A stretch of DNA of 64,000 nucleotides. Origin: an uncultured Flavobacteriales bacterium (lineage in GTDB: Bacteria > Bacteroidota > Bacteroidia > Flavobacteriales_D > Sanyastnellaceae). The notes below the pieces were generated by a model, which was not told the DNA's origin, made no database searches, and saw only the letters and a list, made by a program, of their open reading frames with translations. This document shows positions 3,483 through 17,742 of the stretch, one piece after another. The DNA is taken from positions 1 through 64,000 of the forward strand of contig CALKFF010000003.1 in the NCBI GenBank assembly GCA_938084585.1. Direction: 5' to 3'. The position numbers and the translations under genes were made by a program. Position 1 is the first letter of the stretch. Each line of letters opens with the position of its first letter.

Positions 3483-5711
3483 TCAAGCCAAATCCAACGT
3501 CTGGCCGTTGACCGACACAGACAGCGCGTCGCCTGTCAACAAGGCCACATTGGCTCCTTCGGCGTGAACGGCGACTTCCAACGTCCTGCCCCGGAACTGA
3601 AGCTTGAACGCGAAGGATGACCACCCCTCGGGGAGCATCGTGTGGAACGTAGGCACGCCGTCGACCACCCGGAATCCGCCGAATCCTTCCACCACAGACA
3701 TCCACGTGCCTGCCATCGAGGTGATGTGCAGCCCTTGGTACGCCTCGGCGTTGTAGTCGTCCAGGTCCAACCTGGAAGTGCGGAGGTACATCTCCAAGGC
3801 TTTCTCTTTGCGTCCAAGACGAGACGCCAGAATCCCGTGCACACAAGGCGACAAGCTGCTTTCGTGCACTGTCATCGGCTCGTAGAAGTCGAAATTGTCC
3901 CTCAGCTCTTCCGCACTGAAGTCGTCCGGGAAGAAGTAAAATCCCTGAAGGACGTCCGCTTGCTTGATGAAACAGGAGCGCAAAATGCGGTCCCACGACC
4001 ACACTTGGTTGATGGGGCGAACTTCCTCTGGCAACTCCGCGGCTGGCATGAGGTCCTTGTCCAAGAATCCGTCTTGCTGAAGACGAATGTGGGTGCCATC
4101 TTGCTGAGGCAAGCACATCCGCGTGGCAATGTCGGTCCATTGGCTCAGCTCTTCTGGGCCGACTTGTCCGTCAAAACGGCGAACCAACTCCACGGCATAC
4201 TTCAGGCACCACACGGCGAGGTAATTCGTGTACCAGTTGTTGTTGACGTTGTTCTCGTATTCGTTGGGTCCAGTGACCCCGAGCATCACGTACCCATCGC
4301 GGTGCGACGACCAGTGCACGCGTTGGGCCCAGAAACGGGCCACAGCCACGGCCACCTCGACGCCTTCTTTCGCCAGGTAGGTCGTGTCCCCGGTGTACAT
4401 CTCGTGGTTCCTCAAGGCCAAAATCATGGCTCCGTTGCGGTGAATCTCCTCGAAGGTGATCTCCCATTCGTTGTGACACTCCTCGCCGTTCATGGTGACC
4501 ATGGGGTACAGCGCCGCGCCGCCTGCGAATCCCAACTTCTCGGCATTCTCGATGGCTTTCCCGAGCTGGTTGTGCCGGTACCGGAGCAATTGCTCAGCAA
4601 CGTGCTCTGGATGTGTCGCCAAGAAAAACGGCAAACAGTACGCCTCGGTGTCCCAGTAAGACGCACCGCCGTACTTCTCCCCAGTGAACCCCTTGGGCCC
4701 GACGTTCAATCGCGCATCGTCGCCACGGTACGTTTGGTTCAAGTGGAAAATGTTGAAGCGAATGGCTTGCTGCGCCTCCACGTCGCCTTCAATCCGGATG
4801 TCCCCCAACGACCAAATGTCCGCCCAAGCCGCCTCGTGTCGGGTGCGCTCTTCGCGGTAGCCCAACTCCCTTCCTTCGCGCGCCTCGTTCAGTGCCAGCT
4901 CGGGACAGTCCGCAGACGTGGCGTGCAACGAACTGACCAAGCCCACGTGCTTGTGGAACACCAGCGGTGTCTCGGGCGATTCAAAAGAGGCACCGAGTCC
5001 CGTGGCCTTGACGGCCTCGATCCCTGTCCAGGTTGCCCCAGACAGATTCACAGCCTGTGCGCATGCAACGGTGAATTCCGTTTTTTCGGTGGTGTTCCAG
5101 AGCACCGATGTGCCGGCATCAGGGTGCGATTCGTGCCCCTCGTGGAGCCAGAACGAATCGTCCCAATTCGTGTCCTCGTTGGACACGTCTCCATCCAACA
5201 ACGGTCGGACTTCCAACGTCTCGACGCCATGAAGGGGCGTCACACGCACCTCCACGGCAGCCCTGTTGGGGGAAGCCATGCTGATGAAGCGCTCCGTCTC
5301 CAATTTGATTTTGGCGCCGTCTTGAAGCTCCACAGTGCACGTACGCTGAAGAAGACCCCGACGCATGTCCAGCACCCGCTTGAATCCTTCAATGGACTTT
5401 GTGACGTTCAGGTCCAGGACTTGGCCGTTGACCACGACGTCGGTGCGTGTCCAATTGGTCGCGTTGAGCACTTTGGCGAAGTACTCTGGGTACCCGTTTT
5501 TCCACCACCCCACCTTGGTGCGGTCGGGGTAATACACCCCACCGACGTAACTGCCAAGCATGTGGTCGCCGCTGTAGCCTTCCTCGAAATTGGCACGCTG
5601 GCCAAACCGGCCATTGCCAATGGAGAAGATGCTCTCCGAGCTCCGCATGTTGTCGGGATCAAACCCTTCCTCCACGATGCACCAGGCATCGGCTTTCAGA
5701 TACTTGTTCAT
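3483..5711 (-). CDS. glycoside hydrolase family 65 phosphorylase (maltose phosphorylase-like)
   Basis: MNKYLKADAWCIVEEGFDPDNMRSSESIFSIGNGRFG; YGGASYWDTEAYCLPFFLAT; GVTGPNEYENNVNNNWYTNYLA. Start set at MNKYLK rather than the ORF-track upstream Met. Confidence 0.92.
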   Translation of the reverse strand: MNKYLKADAWCIVEEGFDPDNMRSSESIFSIGNGRFGQRANFEEGYSGDHMLGSYVGGVYYPDRTKVGWWKNGYPEYFAKVLNATNWTRTDVVVNGQVLDLNVTKSIEGFKRVLDMRRGLLQRTCTVELQDGAKIKLETERFISMASPNRAAVEVRVTPLHGVETLEVRPLLDGDVSNEDTNWDDSFWLHEGHESHPDAGTSVLWNTTEKTEFTVACAQAVNLSGATWTGIEAVKATGLGASFESPETPLVFHKHVGLVSSLHATSADCPELALNEAREGRELGYREERTRHEAAWADIWSLGDIRIEGDVEAQQAIRFNIFHLNQTYRGDDARLNVGPKGFTGEKYGGASYWDTEAYCLPFFLATHPEHVAEQLLRYRHNQLGKAIENAEKLGFAGGAALYPMVTMNGEECHNEWEITFEEIHRNGAMILALRNHEMYTGDTTYLAKEGVEVAVAVARFWAQRVHWSSHRDGYVMLGVTGPNEYENNVNNNWYTNYLAVWCLKYAVELVRRFDGQVGPEELSQWTDIATRMCLPQQDGTHIRLQQDGFLDKDLMPAAELPEEVRPINQVWSWDRILRSCFIKQADVLQGFYFFPDDFSAEELRDNFDFYEPMTVHESSLSPCVHGILASRLGRKEKALEMYLRTSRLDLDDYNAEAYQGLHITSMAGTWMSVVEGFGGFRVVDGVPTFHTMLPEGWSSFAFKLQFRGRTLEVAVHAEGANVALLTGDALSVSVNGQTLDLA

Positions 5712-5740
5712 GGCAAAGTCTTGCGACGCGATGCCGCCAA

Positions 5741-6397
5741 TCAGGCGGACATCCAGGTTGTCAAATCGTGCAGGCGCACGCCTTTCAAGTCGGGCTTCAC
5801 CACATCCGCAGCTCCAAGAACCTCGGGGTCGCCGAGGCCCACAGCAAAGAATCCACCCGCCTTTGCGGCGGCCACACCTGCTGCCGCATCTTCGAAGACA
5901 ATGCATTCTGCAGGCTGCACCCCCAATCCCTGGGCGCCCTTCAGGAACACTTCTGGATCGGGCTTGGACAAGGTGATGTGGTTGCCGTCCACGACGACTT
6001 TGAAAAAGCCCGAAAGCTCCACGTTGTCCAAAATGAGCTGGGCGTTTTTGCTGGACGATCCCAGCCCCACGCCAATGCCCGCATCGCTCAACTCCTGGAT
6101 GAGCTCTGCGGCGCCAGGCAAAATGTCTTCCTTCCGCATGCCCTTGATCAAATCGAGGTACCACTCGTTTTTGTGGTTCATCAATTTGAGCTTGGTGGCC
6201 TCGTTGAGTTCCATGTTGCCCAACCGAAGGATGTGCTCCAAGCTGTCCACACGGCTCAACCCCTTCAAGGCATGGTTGTCTTCCTCGGTGAAGGGAATGC
6301 TGAGCTCATCGGCCAGCCGTTTCCAAGCCACAAAGTGGTGCTTGGCCGAATCCACCAGCACCCCGTCCATGTCAAACAAACATCCTTTCAAAGCCAT
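5741..6397 (-). CDS. pgmB: beta-phosphoglucomutase (HAD superfamily)
   Basis: MALKGCLFDMDGVLVDSAKHHFVAWKRLADEL...GLSRVDSLEHIL...GLGSSSKNAQLIL...VFEDAAAGVAAAKAGG. Confidence 0.93.
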   Translation of the reverse strand: MALKGCLFDMDGVLVDSAKHHFVAWKRLADELSIPFTEEDNHALKGLSRVDSLEHILRLGNMELNEATKLKLMNHKNEWYLDLIKGMRKEDILPGAAELIQELSDAGIGVGLGSSSKNAQLILDNVELSGFFKVVVDGNHITLSKPDPEVFLKGAQGLGVQPAECIVFEDAAAGVAAAKAGGFFAVGLGDPEVLGAADVVKPDLKGVRLHDLTTWMSA

Positions 6398-6399
6398 GG

Positions 6400-7263
6400 T
6401 CAAAGCGAGTTGAGAATGAATTTCACGTGGTAATTCGCCAGCCCGTCGATGGGCTTTTTGATGATGTTGCCCACGGTGTATCCGCGGTCCGCGCAAGCCT
6501 GCTTCAGTGCATCCTGGAAATGATAAGCCACGCTGCCCACGAAGTGCACAGGCATGCGCTCCGCCCCTTCAAAGCAGGCCACGTGGGCGTCCAAGAAGGC
6601 CTTGAAGCCTTCGTCCAGCCAATTCTGAATGAATGGATGCTCCTTGTGCTGCCCCAAGAAGGTCATGAAACTGGCCAAAAAGACGTTGGCGTCTGGCTCC
6701 TGGTAAACTTTTCGAGTGATGGACAATTTGTCCAGACCGTACTTCGATTGGAAGTCCGCTTGGATTTCAGCAGGCAACTTGCGGTACAAGAACCCCGCGA
6801 GCAACTTCTTGCCAAACCAAGAACCACTGCCTTCGTCACCCAAGATGTACGCCAGCGCCGGGACCTCCTCGGAGACGTCCTTGCCGTCAAACATGCAACT
6901 GTTGGACCCTGTGCCCAAGATGCAGGTCACGGCCGGCTCACCTGTGTAGGTGCTGTAGGCCGCGCCGTCCAAATCGTGGCCGACGTGCACCACCGCGCCA
7001 GGGAACACGCGCTCAAGCCCTTCGGCGATGACCGCGCACAACTCCGGGGAAGACGACCCTGCGCCGTAGAAGTAGACCCGGTCCACTCCCTCGGCCATGG
7101 CCATGGCTTGAGAATTGGCCTTCATTTCCCGCTCCACCAAGTTGGCGTCGTGGAAATAAGGGTTGAATCCCATGGTGTGGAATTCGCCCAGTTCTTGGCC
7201 ACCTTCTGTGATGGCCAGCCAATCACATTTGGTCGAACCGCTGTCTGCGATGAGGATGCGCAC
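6400..7263 (-). CDS. BadF/BadG/BcrA-type sugar kinase (GlcNAc kinase-like; possible glucokinase)
   Basis: VRILIADSGSTKCDWLAI...CILGTGSNSCMFDG...YILGDEGSGSWFGKKLL: ATPase-fold sugar kinase motifs. GTG start 10 nt after the gapA stop. Confidence 0.82.
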   Translation of the reverse strand: MRILIADSGSTKCDWLAITEGGQELGEFHTMGFNPYFHDANLVEREMKANSQAMAMAEGVDRVYFYGAGSSSPELCAVIAEGLERVFPGAVVHVGHDLDGAAYSTYTGEPAVTCILGTGSNSCMFDGKDVSEEVPALAYILGDEGSGSWFGKKLLAGFLYRKLPAEIQADFQSKYGLDKLSITRKVYQEPDANVFLASFMTFLGQHKEHPFIQNWLDEGFKAFLDAHVACFEGAERMPVHFVGSVAYHFQDALKQACADRGYTVGNIIKKPIDGLANYHVKFILNSL

Positions 7264-7273
7264 GACCCTGGGC

Positions 7274-9287
<2,014 letters not shown>

Positions 9288-9377: not shown

Positions 9378-9394
9378 AGTGTACTTTCGACACC
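9378..9394. promoter_or_regulatory. candidate operator/promoter: AGTGT-ACTTTCG-ACACC inverted repeat overlapping a TACTTTCG -7-like box
   Basis: Imperfect inverted repeat (GTGT/ACAC arms, 7-nt centre) in the divergent pfkA/Nudix gap; same 17-nt layout at 13145-13161 before susC. Confidence 0.5.
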
Positions 9395-9439
9395 TAGTCC
9401 GCTATCTTTCGGGCTTCGCACCCACGAATTGTTCCCACC

Positions 9440-10135
9440 ATGGATGTCAGTGTCGATTGTGTTTTGTTCGGGTTTGACGGAGAATCCCTCAAACTCCTGT
9501 TGATTCGTCAGCGCACGGAATCCGCCGGAGAGTTGACGGAGGCTGCGCTTCAAATGGCCCTGCCTGGCAACTTGGTGGAGGAAGACGAATCACTCGACGA
9601 CGCCGCCAAGCGGGTGTTGAGCGAGCTGACCCAACTTGACGACGTGTTCCTGAAACAATTTCACACCTTCGGCCATCCCGATCGGGTCAGCGATTTGAAA
9701 GACCAGCAATGGCTCCGAACGTTCAGGGAGGAACCGCAAAACCGCGTCATGACCGTGGCCTATTACGGCCTGGTGTCCTTGCACGACCACACCCCTGCGC
9801 CGGCTTCCTTTGCAGGTGACGTGCATTGGACCGACGTGCGGGACTTGCCCAACTTGGCATTCGACCACGACGAGATCGCCTCTCTGGCCCTGGCCACACT
9901 TCGTGCGGAATTGGAATCCAAGCACATTTCGTTTGAGCTCTTGCCGGAAAAATTCACGCTGCGCCAGCTTCAATCTCTACACGAGGTGGTTCTTGACAAG
10001 AAGCTGGACAAGAGAAATTTCCGAAAGAACATCAAGAAGTTGGACCACGTGGTCCCATTGAATGAAAAAGAAGAAGGCGTGTTGCACAAGCCTGCACAAC
10101 TGTTCACCTACGACTCCTCACTCACCCAACCATGA
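9440..10135 (+). CDS. Nudix-domain transcriptional regulator (NrtR/AraR-like, C-terminal winged helix)
   Basis: N-terminal Nudix fold with degenerate Nudix box (GNLVEEDESLDDAAKRVLSELTQL) and C-terminal FTLRQLQSLHEVVLDKKLDKRNFRKNIKKLDHVVPL, typical of NrtR-family DNA-binding regions. Confidence 0.85.
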   Translation: MDVSVDCVLFGFDGESLKLLLIRQRTESAGELTEAALQMALPGNLVEEDESLDDAAKRVLSELTQLDDVFLKQFHTFGHPDRVSDLKDQQWLRTFREEPQNRVMTVAYYGLVSLHDHTPAPASFAGDVHWTDVRDLPNLAFDHDEIASLALATLRAELESKHISFELLPEKFTLRQLQSLHEVVLDKKLDKRNFRKNIKKLDHVVPLNEKEEGVLHKPAQLFTYDSSLTQP

Positions 10136-13131
10136 AGACCTTTTTTCAACTTGCCCTTGGCGCTTGCATGACCTTGACCACCGGCCTCGACTTGCGCGCG
10201 CAAATTGTGTGGACCGAGCCCGCATTCCCCACGGCCAACGACCAAGTGACGTTGTACTACGACATCGCCGAAGGCAACGGCGCGTTGCTGTCGGCCACGC
10301 CTCCCTTTCCAGGCGGCCCGTTCGTGTACGCCCACACTGGGGTCATCACCAGCGCGAGCACGTCCCCCGCAGACTGGCAACATGTCCAAAACCCCTGGCC
10401 TGGGAACGGCAACCTGAGCGAGGCCAACAACGGAAACGTGCTGCTGCCTGTGGAGGGTACGGTGCACAGTTTTGATTTTGGGGGCTTGACCCTCGCCGAG
10501 TACTACGGCGTAGGTGCTGGGGAAACGATTGAACAGTTGGCCTTTGTCTTCCGAAACGCCAACGGCAGCCTCGTCGGCAAGACTGCCGATGAGAGTGACA
10601 TCCTTTACAATGTGTCGGACGGTTCGTTTGAAGTGGCGCTGACGTCACCCTCCGGATCCTCCATCCTGGAAACGTTGGGCAACACCCTCACGCTGCAGGT
10701 CCAAGCCACCCAACCCTGCGACCTGACCCTGGAAGTGAATGGAGAGGCGGTTGCGTCGGGCACAGGCACCTCCTTGAGTCATGGCCTGGTCTTGGACAAC
10801 ACGGGCGATTATCTCGTGACTGCGACAGGCGCGGTGGACGGCGCTTCGAGCACCGACCACGCCGCGGTGGTGGTCCTCCCTGACGCGACCCCAGTGTCTG
10901 CGCCTCCTGCCGGCCTTGTGGATGGCATCAACCACATGAACGACAGCACGGTGATCCTCCAGTGGACGGCCCCTTTCAAAGACTTTGTGTTTGCCGTCGG
11001 GGACTTCAACGATTGGACCCTGAGCACCGCTTCGATGATGCACGACGTAGGCAATGGCGAAACGTTTTGGATTGAGCTGAACGACTTGGTGCCGGGCCAG
11101 GAGTACCGCTACCAATACCACATCATGCCCGACGACATTCGGGTGGCGGATGCGTACGCCGAGGTCATCCTCGACCAATGGAACGACCCGTGGATTCCTG
11201 AAAGCACCTACCCCAACATGCCGGCTTACCCGGCCAACCACACGTCGGGGCCTGTCAGTGTGTTCACCCCAGGAGAAGTTCCGTTTGCGTGGACCGACGA
11301 CGACTTTGAGCGGCCCGACCAAGAGAATGTGGTCATTTACGAATTGCTCGTTCGGGACTTCTCCGAAGACCGCTCGTTCCAATTCATCATCGACTCCCTC
11401 GACTACCTCGAGTCTTTGGGCATTCAAGCGTTGGAGCTCATGCCGGTGAACGAGTTCAACGGAAACGACAGCTGGGGATACAACCCCACGTTCTACTTCG
11501 CGGTCGACAAGGCGTACGGCACCAAAGACGACCTGAAGGCCCTCGTGGACGCCTGCCACGCCCGTGGGATTGCTGTGATTTTGGACGTGGTGTACAACCA
11601 CGCCGACCAGCCCAATCCATTCATCACCATGTACTGGGAAGACTGGACCGTGTTGCCCTACAACCCCTGGTTCAACGTGTCCGCCCCCCACAGCTTCACC
11701 TGGTTCTACGATTGGAACCACGGGACCTCGCAGACGCGTGATTTTGTCAAACGCAACCTCGACCACTGGGTGCAGAATTACCACATCGACGGCTTCCGCT
11801 GGGACTTCACCCAAGGCCTGGTGCAGCAGCAAGGCGTGGACGGAAGCTACAACGCCCAACGCATCCAATGGCTGAAGGAATACGGCGACCACGTCTGGGC
11901 CCAAGACCCCAGCGTGTACATGATTTTGGAGCATTGGTGCGACTTCAACGAAGAGGTGGAGTTGGCGAACCACAATGGCGCCAACGGGGTCAACAGCCCT
12001 GGGTTCATGTTGTGGACCAACGCCACACACGGGTATCAAGAAGCGAGCATGGGCTACAGCGGCAACGACATCGGCTGGGCCAACTTCCAGTCTCATTCCT
12101 TCCAAGACCGCCACGCCGTGGCTTACGCAGAAAGCCACGACGAAGAGCGTTTGATGTACAAAAACCTTCAGTTCGGCAACAGCAACGGAGACTACGACGC
12201 AAGCGACGAAACCATTGCGCTGAGGAGACAACAACTCAGCATGGCGTTCAACTTGCTGATGCCTGGACCACGCATGATTTGGCAGTTTGAAGAGCTGGGC
12301 TACGACTACAGCATCAACACATGCAGCGACGGCGTCACGGTGAGCCCCGACTGCCGGGTGGCCGCCAAACCTGTCCGTTGGGACTACTACAGCCAACCTG
12401 AACGCAAGCACCTCTACGACGTGAGTGGGGCGTTTGCGGCGTTGAAGCGGGATTACCCCGCGTTTGGCCCAGACGCCACATGGTTCAACCTGGACGTGGG
12501 GAGCTACGGCAAGCGCATGCGCTTCGAGCACAGCGCCGGGGACGCGGTGGTTGTGGGGAATTTCAAAACCACAGGCATCGACATGGTGCCCGGGTTCACC
12601 CACACCGGAACGTGGTACGACTTTCTCTCAGGTGAATCGATCAACGTCACAGACCTCGACGCGGCCATGCCGTTCGCACCGGGAGAACTGCACGTGTACA
12701 CGGACACCCCCCTGGACACGCCTGTGCTGCAAGAAATCGACGTCGATTTGGACGGCCAACTGGCCTCCGAAGGCGACTGCAACGACCAAGATGCCACGGT
12801 GTACACCGGCGCTGTCGACATCGCCCTAGACGGCATCGATCAGGATTGCGATGGCGAAGACGCGTTGACCTCGGTGCATGAACACGCTTCCGAATGGTCC
12901 CTCTTCCCCAACCCGGCCACCGATGTCCTGACCTTCCTTCATTCCGACTCGGACATGATTGCATCCGTTCAACTTGTTGACGCCACAGGTCGCCGGATGG
13001 ACGTGTCCTTGGAAGTGGGAGTCGGGGCGTTGACCCTCGACTTGTCCAGCCTCGCCGATGGGGTGTACCACCTGACATGGACGGAAGCGGGTCGCGTCTT
13101 TTCCACACCTGTGCACAAAATGAACCGATGA
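10132..13131 (+). CDS. secreted alpha-amylase family protein (GH13) with MopE-like metal-binding motif and T9SS type-A sorting domain
   Basis: Catalytic regions VILDVVYNHAD, GFRWDFTQGL, ILEHWCDFNEE, YAESHDEERLMYKN; CDNDQD-type segment EGDCNDQDATVYTGAVDIALDGIDQDCDGED; C-terminal SLFPNPATDVLTF...GVYHLTW. ATGA overlap with the Nudix gene. Confidence 0.92.
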   Translation: MKTFFQLALGACMTLTTGLDLRAQIVWTEPAFPTANDQVTLYYDIAEGNGALLSATPPFPGGPFVYAHTGVITSASTSPADWQHVQNPWPGNGNLSEANNGNVLLPVEGTVHSFDFGGLTLAEYYGVGAGETIEQLAFVFRNANGSLVGKTADESDILYNVSDGSFEVALTSPSGSSILETLGNTLTLQVQATQPCDLTLEVNGEAVASGTGTSLSHGLVLDNTGDYLVTATGAVDGASSTDHAAVVVLPDATPVSAPPAGLVDGINHMNDSTVILQWTAPFKDFVFAVGDFNDWTLSTASMMHDVGNGETFWIELNDLVPGQEYRYQYHIMPDDIRVADAYAEVILDQWNDPWIPESTYPNMPAYPANHTSGPVSVFTPGEVPFAWTDDDFERPDQENVVIYELLVRDFSEDRSFQFIIDSLDYLESLGIQALELMPVNEFNGNDSWGYNPTFYFAVDKAYGTKDDLKALVDACHARGIAVILDVVYNHADQPNPFITMYWEDWTVLPYNPWFNVSAPHSFTWFYDWNHGTSQTRDFVKRNLDHWVQNYHIDGFRWDFTQGLVQQQGVDGSYNAQRIQWLKEYGDHVWAQDPSVYMILEHWCDFNEEVELANHNGANGVNSPGFMLWTNATHGYQEASMGYSGNDIGWANFQSHSFQDRHAVAYAESHDEERLMYKNLQFGNSNGDYDASDETIALRRQQLSMAFNLLMPGPRMIWQFEELGYDYSINTCSDGVTVSPDCRVAAKPVRWDYYSQPERKHLYDVSGAFAALKRDYPAFGPDATWFNLDVGSYGKRMRFEHSAGDAVVVGNFKTTGIDMVPGFTHTGTWYDFLSGESINVTDLDAAMPFAPGELHVYTDTPLDTPVLQEIDVDLDGQLASEGDCNDQDATVYTGAVDIALDGIDQDCDGEDALTSVHEHASEWSLFPNPATDVLTFLHSDSDMIASVQLVDATGRRMDVSLEVGVGALTLDLSSLADGVYHLTWTEAGRVFSTPVHKMNR

Positions 13132-13144
13132 ACCCAAGGGGGTT

Positions 13145-13161
13145 GGTGTATTTTTGACACC
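13145..13161. promoter_or_regulatory. candidate operator/promoter: GGTGT-ATTTTTG-ACACC inverted repeat overlapping TATTTTTG -7 box
   Basis: Perfect 5-bp arms with 7-nt centre, 40 nt upstream of the susC ATG; 14/17 identical to the site at 9378-9394. Confidence 0.55.
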
Positions 13162-13201: not shown

Positions 13202-16200
13202 ATGATTCCAATTCAACGCATCGCCGCCGCGGCGTTTGCGCTCACCCTGCTCAGCACGGCGTGGGCCCAAGGCACGGTCAAAGGCAAAATCACGGACGAA
13301 CAGGGCACTCCCCTGCCATCTGCCACCGTGGCGGTCACGGGGGGGACCGGGGTCTTCACCGACTTTGACGGCAACTACGAACTCCAGCTGGCCGCGGGAG
13401 ATTACACGTTGGCGTGCTCGTACATCGGCTACCTCAACAAGACCAAAAAGGTGTCGGTCAAAAACGGCGAGACCGTGACCCGAAACATCCGCTTGTCGGA
13501 GGACGCTGTGATGTTGAACGAATCCGTGGTTGTGGGCTACGGCGTCCAACGCAAGAAGGAAGTCACTGGATCCATCGCCACCATCGACTCCAAAGAGATC
13601 ACCGCAGTCCAAACGCCTTCGTTTGAAGCCGCCCTGCAAGGGCAGGCTGCCGGTGTCCAAGTCACCCAAGGTTCGGGCATGGCGGGCAGTGCATCCATTG
13701 TGCGCATCCGCGGCCTAAGCTCGATTTCAGCTGGCGGCGATCCGCTGTACGTGGTGGACGGCATCCCCATCACCCAAGACTACTTCGCAGGCGGCAACAG
13801 CGGCGCGATGAACCGCAACCCTTTGGCGTCTTTGAACCCCAACGACATCAAGGACATCCAAGTGCTGAAAGACGCTGCGGCCACAGGCATTTACGGGTCT
13901 CGCGGCGCCAACGGGGTGATTTTGATCACGACCAAGCGGGGTGTCAAGAAAGGCATCCAAGTCAGCTACGGGTCTTCCATTGGCTACGGCGAATCCACCG
14001 CCACGCCCAACATGATGACCACCGAGGAATACCTCACCATCCGTCAGGAAGCATGGGAGAACGACGGCGGCACAGGCTACGTGTGGCTTCCCTTGTTGAG
14101 CACCCCAGGCTCCAGCCCAGACGCGCGTCGCCGGGCCTACGAGAGGGCCTTGGAAACCAACACCGATTGGTTTGACCTCTTCACCCGCCGCGCCCAAAAA
14201 ACCCAGCAAAACATTGGACTGCGGAGTGGTGGCGAAAAGTGGTCCATGTACAATGGCGTGAGTTACGACAAGAATGAGAGCTACGCTGTGGGCAACAGCT
14301 ACACGCGCCTCAGCGCCCGGACCAACTTCGACTGGACGCCGAACGACAAGCTCAAGTTCTTGCTGTCCGGAAGCACGTCTGAAGGCCGCAACCAGCGTGT
14401 GCGCGGCGGATGGTCAGGCGGCATCGGCGCGGCCATGTCGACGGCCCTCCCGTACATGTCACCATTTGTGGTTGACTCGACGTTTGACGCCAACGGCAAC
14501 CTCACAGCCACCGAGCGCAACTATGAGTTGAACCGTTGGTTCAACCCCATGGCGTATCAGGATTTGATCCAGTGGCGCGAAACGGAGCGTCGTCAAATCG
14601 CCACAGGCCAAATCGTGTACAGCCCCCACAGCAAGGTGGACATCGTGGTGAACGGAGGGTACGACAACAGCCGTCTGGAAAACGACTCCCACGAGGACTC
14701 GTACCTCGACCGGACCAACGGGTTCTCGTACGCGAACTGGAGCGAATACAACGCCCGGAACTACAATGTGGGCGGGAACGCCACCTTCCGCGTGCTCGAC
14801 AACGATTCCACGAGCTTGTCCCTCATGGTGGGTGCGGAGGCGCAGAAGTTTGAAAGCGACGGCTTCGGCTTCAACTTGCGGGATTCCGAGGGCCCAGCGT
14901 ACGCCATCACGACGTTGCGCGACTCGTTGTTTGGGCTGCAGGACAGCCTGTACGACGCCGTCTCCACTGTCACCAACGCCTATCCCATCCAGTACCGCAC
15001 CGACGGCTTCGCGTCCACGTTCGCGCGGATGAACTACAGCCTGTTGGACAAGTACTTCTTCCAGGCCACGGCGCGGGTGGACGGATCCTCCCGATTCGGC
15101 GAAAACAACCGCTTCGGCTTCTTCCCCTCGGCCTCCATTGGCTGGGTGGCCAGCGACGAAGATTGGTTCAATTCCGAAACCATCAGCTTCCTGAAAGTCC
15201 GCACCAGCTGGGGACGCACAGGCAACGCCAACATCGACGGCTTCAGCCGTTTCGCGCTGTACGTCGACCAAAGCCAAGGCGCCACGTATGCGGGCGACAC
15301 GTTGGTGTTCCCGACCCAACCTGGCAACCCAGACCTGCGCTGGGAAACGGTCCGCACAGTGGACGCCTCGGTGGAAATGGGACTTTGGAACGATCGCGTG
15401 TCCGTCGAATTGGGCTTCTACGACAAGTTGGCCAGCGACGTCCTCATGAACGTGGAACTCCCCTCCCACACCGGCTTCAACAACCGCTCCGTCAATGCGG
15501 GTGAGGTGTTGAACCGGGGGGTGGAATTGGGCGTCACGTCCAACAACCTCACAGGGCCAGTCTTGTGGAAGACCACCCTGAACTACGCTTACAACTACAA
15601 CGAATTGGTCAGCACCGGGGCGTTCACCGAGGACGCGATTTCGGGCGGCACCAACGACAGCCGCGCCGTGACCGGCGCCCCACTGACCACCTACTTCCTG
15701 GTCCCATTCAGCCACGTCGACCCCGAATCCGGACTGCCTGTCTACATCGACATCGAAGGCAACGAAACGTTCGAGTACAACCTCGAAGACCGCCGGGCAG
15801 TGGGCGACGGGTTGCCCGACCACGTGGCCGGACTCCGCAACGAATTCTCTTGGGGCAATTGGAGCTTCAGCTCCCAGTTCACGGCGGCGTTCGGCGCCAA
15901 GATTTGGGACAGCTCGGCCAAGCGCCAACTCGGCGTGGTCACCGACTGGAACATGCGCACCGACTTGTTTGACCGGTGGAGGCAGCCGGGCGACATCGCC
16001 TCGTTCCCGCGCCTCACGTTGGACGAAACCACCTACGGATTGCCCGCGGGATTCCCGTGGTGGAACACCAGCCTCTTCATGTACGACGCCAGCTACGTTC
16101 GCTTGCGCAACGCCTCGCTGTCGTACCGCGTGCCCATGGACAAGGGCGACGTGACCTTCCGTGTGGCGGGGAACAACCTCTTCGTGCTCACCAACTTCAT

Positions 16201-16327
16201 CGGGCTGGACCCCGAGCTGACCCGGGACTTTGAGAACCGTCAAGACCGCAACTTCTCCGGAGGAGCCAACTACTTGACCGCCCCGCAAGAGCGCTCCGTC
16301 ATCTTCTCCATCGCTGCCAACTTCTGA
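13202..16327 (+). CDS. susC: SusC/RagA-type TonB-linked outer membrane protein
   Basis: Signal peptide, carboxypeptidase-regulatory domain (GTVKGKITDEQGTPLPSATVAV), plug (NESVVVGYGVQRKKEVTGSIATI, IRIRGLSSISAGGDPLYVVDGIP), GSRGANGVILITTKRG. Confidence 0.97.
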   Translation: MIPIQRIAAAAFALTLLSTAWAQGTVKGKITDEQGTPLPSATVAVTGGTGVFTDFDGNYELQLAAGDYTLACSYIGYLNKTKKVSVKNGETVTRNIRLSEDAVMLNESVVVGYGVQRKKEVTGSIATIDSKEITAVQTPSFEAALQGQAAGVQVTQGSGMAGSASIVRIRGLSSISAGGDPLYVVDGIPITQDYFAGGNSGAMNRNPLASLNPNDIKDIQVLKDAAATGIYGSRGANGVILITTKRGVKKGIQVSYGSSIGYGESTATPNMMTTEEYLTIRQEAWENDGGTGYVWLPLLSTPGSSPDARRRAYERALETNTDWFDLFTRRAQKTQQNIGLRSGGEKWSMYNGVSYDKNESYAVGNSYTRLSARTNFDWTPNDKLKFLLSGSTSEGRNQRVRGGWSGGIGAAMSTALPYMSPFVVDSTFDANGNLTATERNYELNRWFNPMAYQDLIQWRETERRQIATGQIVYSPHSKVDIVVNGGYDNSRLENDSHEDSYLDRTNGFSYANWSEYNARNYNVGGNATFRVLDNDSTSLSLMVGAEAQKFESDGFGFNLRDSEGPAYAITTLRDSLFGLQDSLYDAVSTVTNAYPIQYRTDGFASTFARMNYSLLDKYFFQATARVDGSSRFGENNRFGFFPSASIGWVASDEDWFNSETISFLKVRTSWGRTGNANIDGFSRFALYVDQSQGATYAGDTLVFPTQPGNPDLRWETVRTVDASVEMGLWNDRVSVELGFYDKLASDVLMNVELPSHTGFNNRSVNAGEVLNRGVELGVTSNNLTGPVLWKTTLNYAYNYNELVSTGAFTEDAISGGTNDSRAVTGAPLTTYFLVPFSHVDPESGLPVYIDIEGNETFEYNLEDRRAVGDGLPDHVAGLRNEFSWGNWSFSSQFTAAFGAKIWDSSAKRQLGVVTDWNMRTDLFDRWRQPGDIASFPRLTLDETTYGLPAGFPWWNTSLFMYDASYVRLRNASLSYRVPMDKGDVTFRVAGNNLFVLTNFIGLDPELTRDFENRQDRNFSGGANYLTAPQERSVIFSIAANF

Positions 16328-16332
16328 TTGCC

Positions 16333-17742
16333 ATGAAGCACACTCATCACCTTTTCGCGGCCCTGTTGGGATTGGTTCTTCTCCTTCCTGCCTGCCGCTG
16401 GCTTGAAGTCAACCCCGACCAATACATTTTGGCGGAGGACGCCTTGGAGACCCCAGAGGATTTGCAAGCCTTGCTCGTGTCTTGTTACGACGTGTTGGCC
16501 AACCTCTACGACGGAGACGTTCAGTTGATGAACGAACTCCGCGGAGACAACACCAACGAACCGTTGTCCAACAACGACTTCAAGGCGATTTACAACCGTG
16601 AGACCATCCGTTGGACCTCTTACGTGGGCGGCGTCAACCGGGACTTCTTCTACCCTGTCCTGCGCGTCAACAGCCTGCTGAGCAGCTTCGACTTGATTGA
16701 AGGGTTGAGCGACGAGGAACGCGACCGGATGGAAGCCGAGGCGTTGTTCATCCGCGCCTTCTGCTTTTGGGGTGCCGTCAAGATGTTTGCCCAGCCCTAC
16801 GGGTACACGGCAGACAACAGCCACCCCGGCATTCCCCTGCCCACGTTCCTTCGGGACGCCCCCTTCCCCCGCGCCAGCGTGGCGGAGGCTTACGCACAAA
16901 TTGAAGATGATTTGAACGCCGCCATCGCCGGCTTGCCTTCAGAGAATGGCGTGTACGCCACCAGCCATGCCGCCAAGGCCCTCCTCGCCCAGGTGCACTT
17001 CCTGAAGCAAGAATGGCAACAGGCGGCAGACTTGGCCACCGAGGTCATCGGGTCTGGCGAATTCACCCTCGAACAGCCTGAAAGCGACAGCGCCTTTGCG
17101 GTCATGCGTCTTCCCATTGGGTCAAGCAGCAGCGAGACCATCTTCGGGGCCTACAGCACGCTGAGCACCAACGACAACCGCACTGACCAATTTGTGCAGT
17201 GGTGGCAGCCCACCTCCAACCCTGAAATCAGCCTCACGACGGATTTTTGGAATTGGTTCCAACAAATTGCCCCTGGCGCCAACGAAGACCGGCGCGCCTT
17301 GTGGTTGGTGAACCAACCCACCGAAGGCAAGGCCTTGCTCACACGCTTCAACGAGCACAGCTTCTTCAACGTGCCACTCATTCACCTCACCCAAATGATG
17401 CTCATCCGGGCGGAGTGCCGCGGTGAATTGGGCACCAACTTGGATCAGGCTGCAGGCGACTTGAACGCCATCCGCAACCGCGCCGGCATCACCTCAGAAG
17501 TCTACCTCTTGGGTCCTGACGCCAACGCCGAAGACATCGTCACCGCGGCCCGTCACGAATACCGGAAGGAAACCTTGGGCATGGGACTCTGGGTGGAACA
17601 ACTCCAGCGCCGCGGCACCATGGGAGAAGACATCATGATCCGCAATGCGCCGTGGGATTGCCCAGGCATGGCCTTGCAATTCTCTGCCTCGGAAGGCAAC
17701 GTTGCAGGGTTTGAGTTCAACGAAGTGGGCGGATGCAACTGA
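16333..17742 (+). CDS. susD: SusD/RagB-type nutrient-binding lipoprotein
   Basis: Lipoprotein signal LLPACRWLEVNPDQYI, SusD-like NSLLSSFDLIEG...AEALFIRAFCFWGAVKMFAQPYGYT; LNAIRNRAGI near the C-terminus; directly downstream of susC. Confidence 0.95.
   Translation: MKHTHHLFAALLGLVLLLPACRWLEVNPDQYILAEDALETPEDLQALLVSCYDVLANLYDGDVQLMNELRGDNTNEPLSNNDFKAIYNRETIRWTSYVGGVNRDFFYPVLRVNSLLSSFDLIEGLSDEERDRMEAEALFIRAFCFWGAVKMFAQPYGYTADNSHPGIPLPTFLRDAPFPRASVAEAYAQIEDDLNAAIAGLPSENGVYATSHAAKALLAQVHFLKQEWQQAADLATEVIGSGEFTLEQPESDSAFAVMRLPIGSSSSETIFGAYSTLSTNDNRTDQFVQWWQPTSNPEISLTTDFWNWFQQIAPGANEDRRALWLVNQPTEGKALLTRFNEHSFFNVPLIHLTQMMLIRAECRGELGTNLDQAAGDLNAIRNRAGITSEVYLLGPDANAEDIVTAARHEYRKETLGMGLWVEQLQRRGTMGEDIMIRNAPWDCPGMALQFSASEGNVAGFEFNEVGGCN

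Follow-up and report, generated by a model that had tools for sequence, protein, structure and literature searches.

The two 17-nt inverted repeats at 9378-9394 and 13145-13161 of the window (the whole 64,000-nucleotide stretch of DNA that was analysed) are best read as operators bound by the Nudix regulator encoded next to them, a protein of the AraR/NrtR type, and they would belong to a wider regulon of starch use and glycolysis/gluconeogenesis. On the comparisons given below we put the probability of this reading at about 0.8. It is strongly supported by sequence, since the regulator carries the DNA-reading helix of a characterised family member, the repeats are of the same operator type, and the word is both conserved and found together with the regulator. 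An operator of the adjacent Nudix regulator had already been predicted by the sequence-only reading, and this prediction held well: the repeats have the operator type of that protein family and track the regulator across genomes.

Two inverted repeats in a starch and glycolysis locus

The features of the locus are as follows.

3483..6164, - strand: GH65, maltose phosphorylase type; the ORF probably extends upstream of the true start
5741..6496, - strand: HAD hydrolase, beta-phosphoglucomutase type (pgmB), type assigned by context
6400..7305, - strand: sugar kinase, BadF/BadG-type, from a weak Pfam match
7274..8260, - strand: gapA, glyceraldehyde-3-phosphate dehydrogenase, assigned from its sequence
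8316..9287, - strand: pfkA, divergent from the regulator, assigned from its sequence
9378..9394: putative operator 1, in the spacer between the divergent pfkA and Nudix genes
9403..9411, + strand: TATCTTTCG, proposed from its conservation as the -7 box of the regulator promoter
9440..10135, + strand: Nudix regulator P0001, AraR/NrtR-like by Pfam profiles and alignment with BtAraR
10132..13131, + strand: secreted GH13, overlapping the regulator stop codon
13145..13161: putative operator 2, before susC
13149..13156, + strand: TATTTTTG, inside operator 2, possible -7 box of susC
13202..16327, + strand: susC, TonB-dependent transporter, from its own sequence and the adjacent SusD
16333..17742, + strand: susD

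On the plus strand the regulator is followed by the secreted GH13 gene, with which it shares a transcription unit, then by susC, susD and more GH13 genes. The divergent minus-strand genes run in the order pfkA, gapA, BadF-type kinase, pgmB-type HAD and GH65. The divergent spacer measures 152 bp, and the pfkA start codon at 9287 lies 90 nt from operator 1. Both sites were thus confirmed at the targets proposed earlier (the regulator-GH13 unit and susCD), but that target set was too narrow in that it overlooked the divergent pfkA operon.

Operator 1 is AGTGTACTTTCGACACC (AGTGT-ACTTTCG-ACACC), in which four of the five arm pairs match and the outer pair is A/C, while the 5-bp arms of operator 2, GGTGTATTTTTGACACC (GGTGT-ATTTTTG-ACACC), are perfect (GGTGT/ACACC). 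Fourteen of the 17 positions are identical between them and three differ, exactly as, and where, the sequence-only reading had them. Its distance of 45-50 nt to the start codon is right for operator 1, which ends 45 nt before the regulator ATG at 9440, but not for operator 2, which ends 40 nt before the susC ATG at 13202.

The pair alone does not exceed chance. At a tolerance of three mismatches the window should contain 0.84 matches by chance, and at least two were found in 22 of 100 shuffles. Across the whole of its own genome the bare word RGTGTN7ACACY occurs 7 times against 9 for the reversed control, which is no enrichment, and its genome-wide count is not enriched in genus genomes either. 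What lifts the word above chance is therefore its position and conservation, and not the pair or the bare count. Six of the seven own-genome sites stand upstream of starch or glycolysis genes, and eight of the nine control words fall within long ORFs. The site at C33:55404, inside a 2610-aa ORF, was taken as a chance match. For any one 300-bp upstream stretch, the chance of meeting the word is about 0.002, or roughly 1 in 500 (24 sites in 4.1 Mb).

The Nudix regulator and its relation to AraR

P0001 matches Pfam PF00293, PF21906 (E 2e-23) and PF19368, all over cut-off, and has an N-terminal Nudix domain followed by a C-terminal NrtR/AraR winged helix, which places it in the NrtR/AraR family. 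Its Nudix signature GNLVEEDESLDDAAKRVLSELTQL is impaired as in AraR, the REUxEExG part reading KRVLSELT. In the tree it groups with strong support (99/98) in a set of 16 rows, almost all of them pfkA-linked regulators of Flavobacteriales.

The closest characterised comparison is BtAraR (BT0354) of Bacteroides thetaiotaomicron, a member of the NrtR family (PDB 5bs6/5dd4/5ddg/5deq; PMC4666351), to which P0001 aligns with E 9e-36. Both proteins combine a dead Nudix domain with a winged HTH, and the recognition helix DKRNFRK (residues 190-196 of P0001, invariant in 11 orthologs) is identical in the two. The BtAraR residues Lys179, Arg180, Asn181, Arg183 and Lys184 touch DNA and, together with wing residues, define the GTGT half-site (PMC4666351). 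EMSA and a crystal structure have established the BtAraR operators as AGTGT-N7-ACAC[CT], for example AGTGTATTTGATACACC and AGTGTAAAAAAGACACT (PMC4666351), and these are likewise placed before susCD and glycoside hydrolase genes; the repeats of the window follow the same pattern. The wing of P0001 reads HKPAQ (residues 216-220). Its H216-K217, also invariant in 11 orthologs, align with wing K204-R205 of BtAraR when the alignment is made through the paralog described below, so the BtAraR wing pair itself is not retained.

The ligand pocket departs further. The arabinose contacts H131 (in FDH) and an equivalent of R86 are kept, but R34, F36, G48 and F49 of BtAraR align with Q, T, N and L in P0001. 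Assignment of P0001 as an AraR ortholog was rejected, as R34 is lost and the neighbours are pfkA, gapA, the kinase, pgmB, GH65, GH13 and susCD; the surroundings are glycolytic and starch-related, with no araBAD. P0001 also has some 15 extra residues that are specific to its clade and absent from AraR, RVxxLKDQxWLRxFR (residues 82-96, about 9683-9727 of the window); this insert has invariant basic residues and adjoins the predicted ligand pocket. Such a basic insert could accommodate a phosphorylated ligand. Because the helix and operator are kept while pocket residues are replaced and the insert is added, the DNA word is the one known from AraR, and the ligand of P0001 is probably different.

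Two other family members differ in what they control. XylR (BT0791; PMC3878776, PMC4666351) is, like P0001, a Bacteroidota sugar regulator of the NrtR family, but it is assigned to xylose genes. NrtR of Shewanella oneidensis (PDB 3gz5/3gz6) shares the Nudix and winged-helix architecture; it is more distant (E 3e-13), with ADP-ribose as its signal and NAD metabolism as its target. A further Nudix regulator of the NrtR/AraR-like kind is encoded in the own genome at G000:C11:86994-87611 (L086:9944-10660), between dnaB and metK; it is 36% identical to P0001.

Conservation and wider targets of the word

Within the genus, all 10 regulator-bearing genomes have a single copy of AGTGTANNNNNGACACC (AGTGTA-N5-GACACC), always directly before the regulator, and G003, a genus genome without the regulator, has none. 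Beyond the genus the centre varies and GTGT-N7-ACAC stays constant: 27 of 30 genus and family genomes have it within 300 nt of the regulator, in the spacer to pfkA. The word lies in the same spacer again in named Cryomorphaceae, Schleiferiaceae, Marivirga, Pedobacter and Mucilaginibacter genomes, and where pfkA and the regulator stand apart (L314, L332) it remains at pfkA. In genomes with no detected ortholog, only one of 13 pfkA upstream regions bears the word (G053), and the genus mates of that genome, G043 and G059, have the regulator.

Elsewhere in the own genome, sites were found at the following positions.

C9:66451: before pckA
C14:39889: before pyk, overlapping the stop codon of the preceding gene
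C20:31700: before a SusG-like GH13
C22:13437: between a divergent pair, a cyclomaltodextrinase-type GH13 and a CBM48 protein
C39: site(s) before a CBM48 protein and an MFS transporter

Hence the targets named in the sequence-only reading also fall short outside the window, where pckA, pyk and further GH13 genes are preceded by sites. No site precedes pgi or gdhA in the own genome. In the complete genome of a relative (G021), by comparison, sites precede pgi (C1:1045031), pckA (2381131), gdhA (3199964), isocitrate dehydrogenase (2544768), a glycogen-type GH13 operon (630793), the pyk operon and an operon ending in gpmI. In raw counts that are uncorrected for kinship, the upstream site of pyk is present in 11 of 21 genomes with the regulator versus 0 of 7 without it, and that of pckA in 12 of 20 versus 0 of 7 (G044 set aside); on the same uncorrected basis the exact core precedes GH13 genes of other genomes in 16 of 22 cases, and a site precedes gdhA in 4 of 22 and pgi in 4 of 19. 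Many regulator-bearing genomes lack the sites at pyk, pckA, gdhA or pgi, so the regulon is plastic. In the own genome it would comprise the pfkA operon, pyk, pckA, GH13 genes, CBM48 proteins and the MFS transporter, and would thus span import and hydrolysis of starch and maltodextrin, glycolysis and gluconeogenesis.

Promoter boxes, rival readings and proposed control

The Bacteroidota -7 consensus is TAnnTTTG, and the -33 TTTG is often dispensable (PMC2483708, PMC7366714). The operator centre had earlier been equated with this box, which is plausible at susC, where TAnnTTTG fills the centre of operator 2 in 6 of 7 genus genomes, but weak at the regulator. There the centre box TAnnTTYG (TACTTTCG at 9382, in operator 1) occurs in 3 of 10 genus genomes, all from near-identical species, whereas all 10 have a second, distinct box, TATCTT(G/T) or TAACTTG, 7-8 nt downstream of operator 1. 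The operator centre also reads TAnnTTTG at pckA of the own species group, and in several family genomes a TATsTTT box follows the pyk operator at a distance of 8-9 nt. Among 86 collected sites the centre box is found forward in 13 and reverse in none, a bias that is suggestive of meaning, though it comes mostly from few related lineages. As a general rule, equating the centre with the -7 box was rejected. Column composition by itself would give 9%, not far from the 15% observed in these 86 sites.

The same figures bear on the view that only the -7 box is functional and the arms match by chance. It draws on the forward-only orientation and on the own genome, where TAnnTTYG is central at the regulator, at susC and at pckA; the near-expected box rate and the separate conserved box downstream of operator 1 weigh against it. 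Phylogenetic footprinting, which had been proposed along with the sequence-only reading, gave invariant arms around a variable centre (TACAATCG, TACAAAAG, TATATTTT and others), the opposite of a conserved -7 box between drifting arms, and we regard this view as quite improbable. An RNA hairpin (an attenuator or leader element) in place of an operator is less probable still. At susC a 5-bp stem with a 7-nt loop could form 40 nt before the start codon, but the regulator promoter has its conserved -7-like box downstream of the element, which is therefore probably untranscribed there; moreover, neither the centre nor the spacing to the gene (about 15 to 170 nt) is constant, and the geometry is that of a crystallised AraR operator.

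Somewhat more weight, though still little, goes to the possibility that the main protein binding these sites is a different family member, either the C11 paralog or a subfamily of 43-47% identity. The paralog carries the identical helix DKRNFRK, so cross-binding to P0001 sites is possible, and G044 has sites before pckA and gdhA although its sole homolog is 43% identical. On the other hand, G021 and G014 have the ortholog only and the sites are present, whereas G015 and G034, with only a 44-45% homolog, have no site at pfkA, and G015 has none at pyk, pckA, gdhA or pgi. The paralog's own dnaB-metK stretch is also free of RGTGTN7ACACY sites. We consider this alternative unlikely.

With P0001 as the regulator that reads the operators, a dimer would contact GTGT in each half-site of GTGT-N7-ACAC through its winged helices. 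Operator 1 would serve the divergent pfkA and Nudix-GH13 promoters, and operator 2 susCD. By analogy with AraR, the apo-dimer would most likely repress by covering the promoter: occlusion of the -7 box itself is plausible at susC and at pckA of the own species group, while at the regulator, and at pyk in family genomes, the operator would lie over the -33/spacer region that precedes the -7 box. A glucose-derived ligand in the dead Nudix domain would then release the repressor, again as modelled on AraR. Free glucose or a hexose phosphate is our guess for the effector, because pfkA, gapA and the sugar kinase are the most constant neighbours and the starch products of the locus end in glucose and glucose-1-phosphate. 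At the gluconeogenic pckA the sign of control may differ.

To our knowledge, no dedicated transcriptional regulator of glycolysis has been reported in Bacteroidota, and our literature search found no description of a Nudix glycolysis regulator in this phylum. In other phyla, central carbon metabolism is under Cra/FruR, CggR or HexR, which belong to protein families unrelated to Nudix; the regulon proposed for P0001 is similar in scope, with targets of the pfkA, gapA, pyk, pckA and pgi type. We see an even chance that this Nudix-fold factor is a central regulator of glycolysis and gluconeogenesis across much of Bacteroidota (at least Flavobacteriales and Sphingobacteriales) and a functional counterpart of these three, one whose dead Nudix pocket, with its basic insert specific to the clade, senses glucose or a hexose phosphate, and which links pfkA, pyk and pckA directly to the loci for starch uptake. 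The sugar members described for the NrtR family, AraR and XylR, deal with a single pentose each (PMC4666351, PMC3878776). The operator type and the protein family are thus known, and what appears new is a much wider, central-carbon target set. A conserved regulator whose operator word is searchable and stands at starch loci as well as at pfkA, pyk and pckA makes it possible to test how central carbon flux is controlled in these abundant polysaccharide degraders, with cultured Pedobacter, Mucilaginibacter and Marivirga as direct test hosts.

Homologs in other lineages were also observed. In Crocinitomicaceae and relatives (L335, L338, L341), homologs with the helix DKRNFRR adjoin a BadF-type kinase, GH13 and an MFS transporter, and have a TGTGTCATTTTTACACT site at -86. 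Bacteroidales homologs in Geofilum, Marinifilum and Carboxylicivirga (L352, L363, L365) are followed by an apparent GPH-type sugar transporter and a GH94-type phosphorylase, both judged by sequence, hinting at glucoside phosphorolysis as a common theme.
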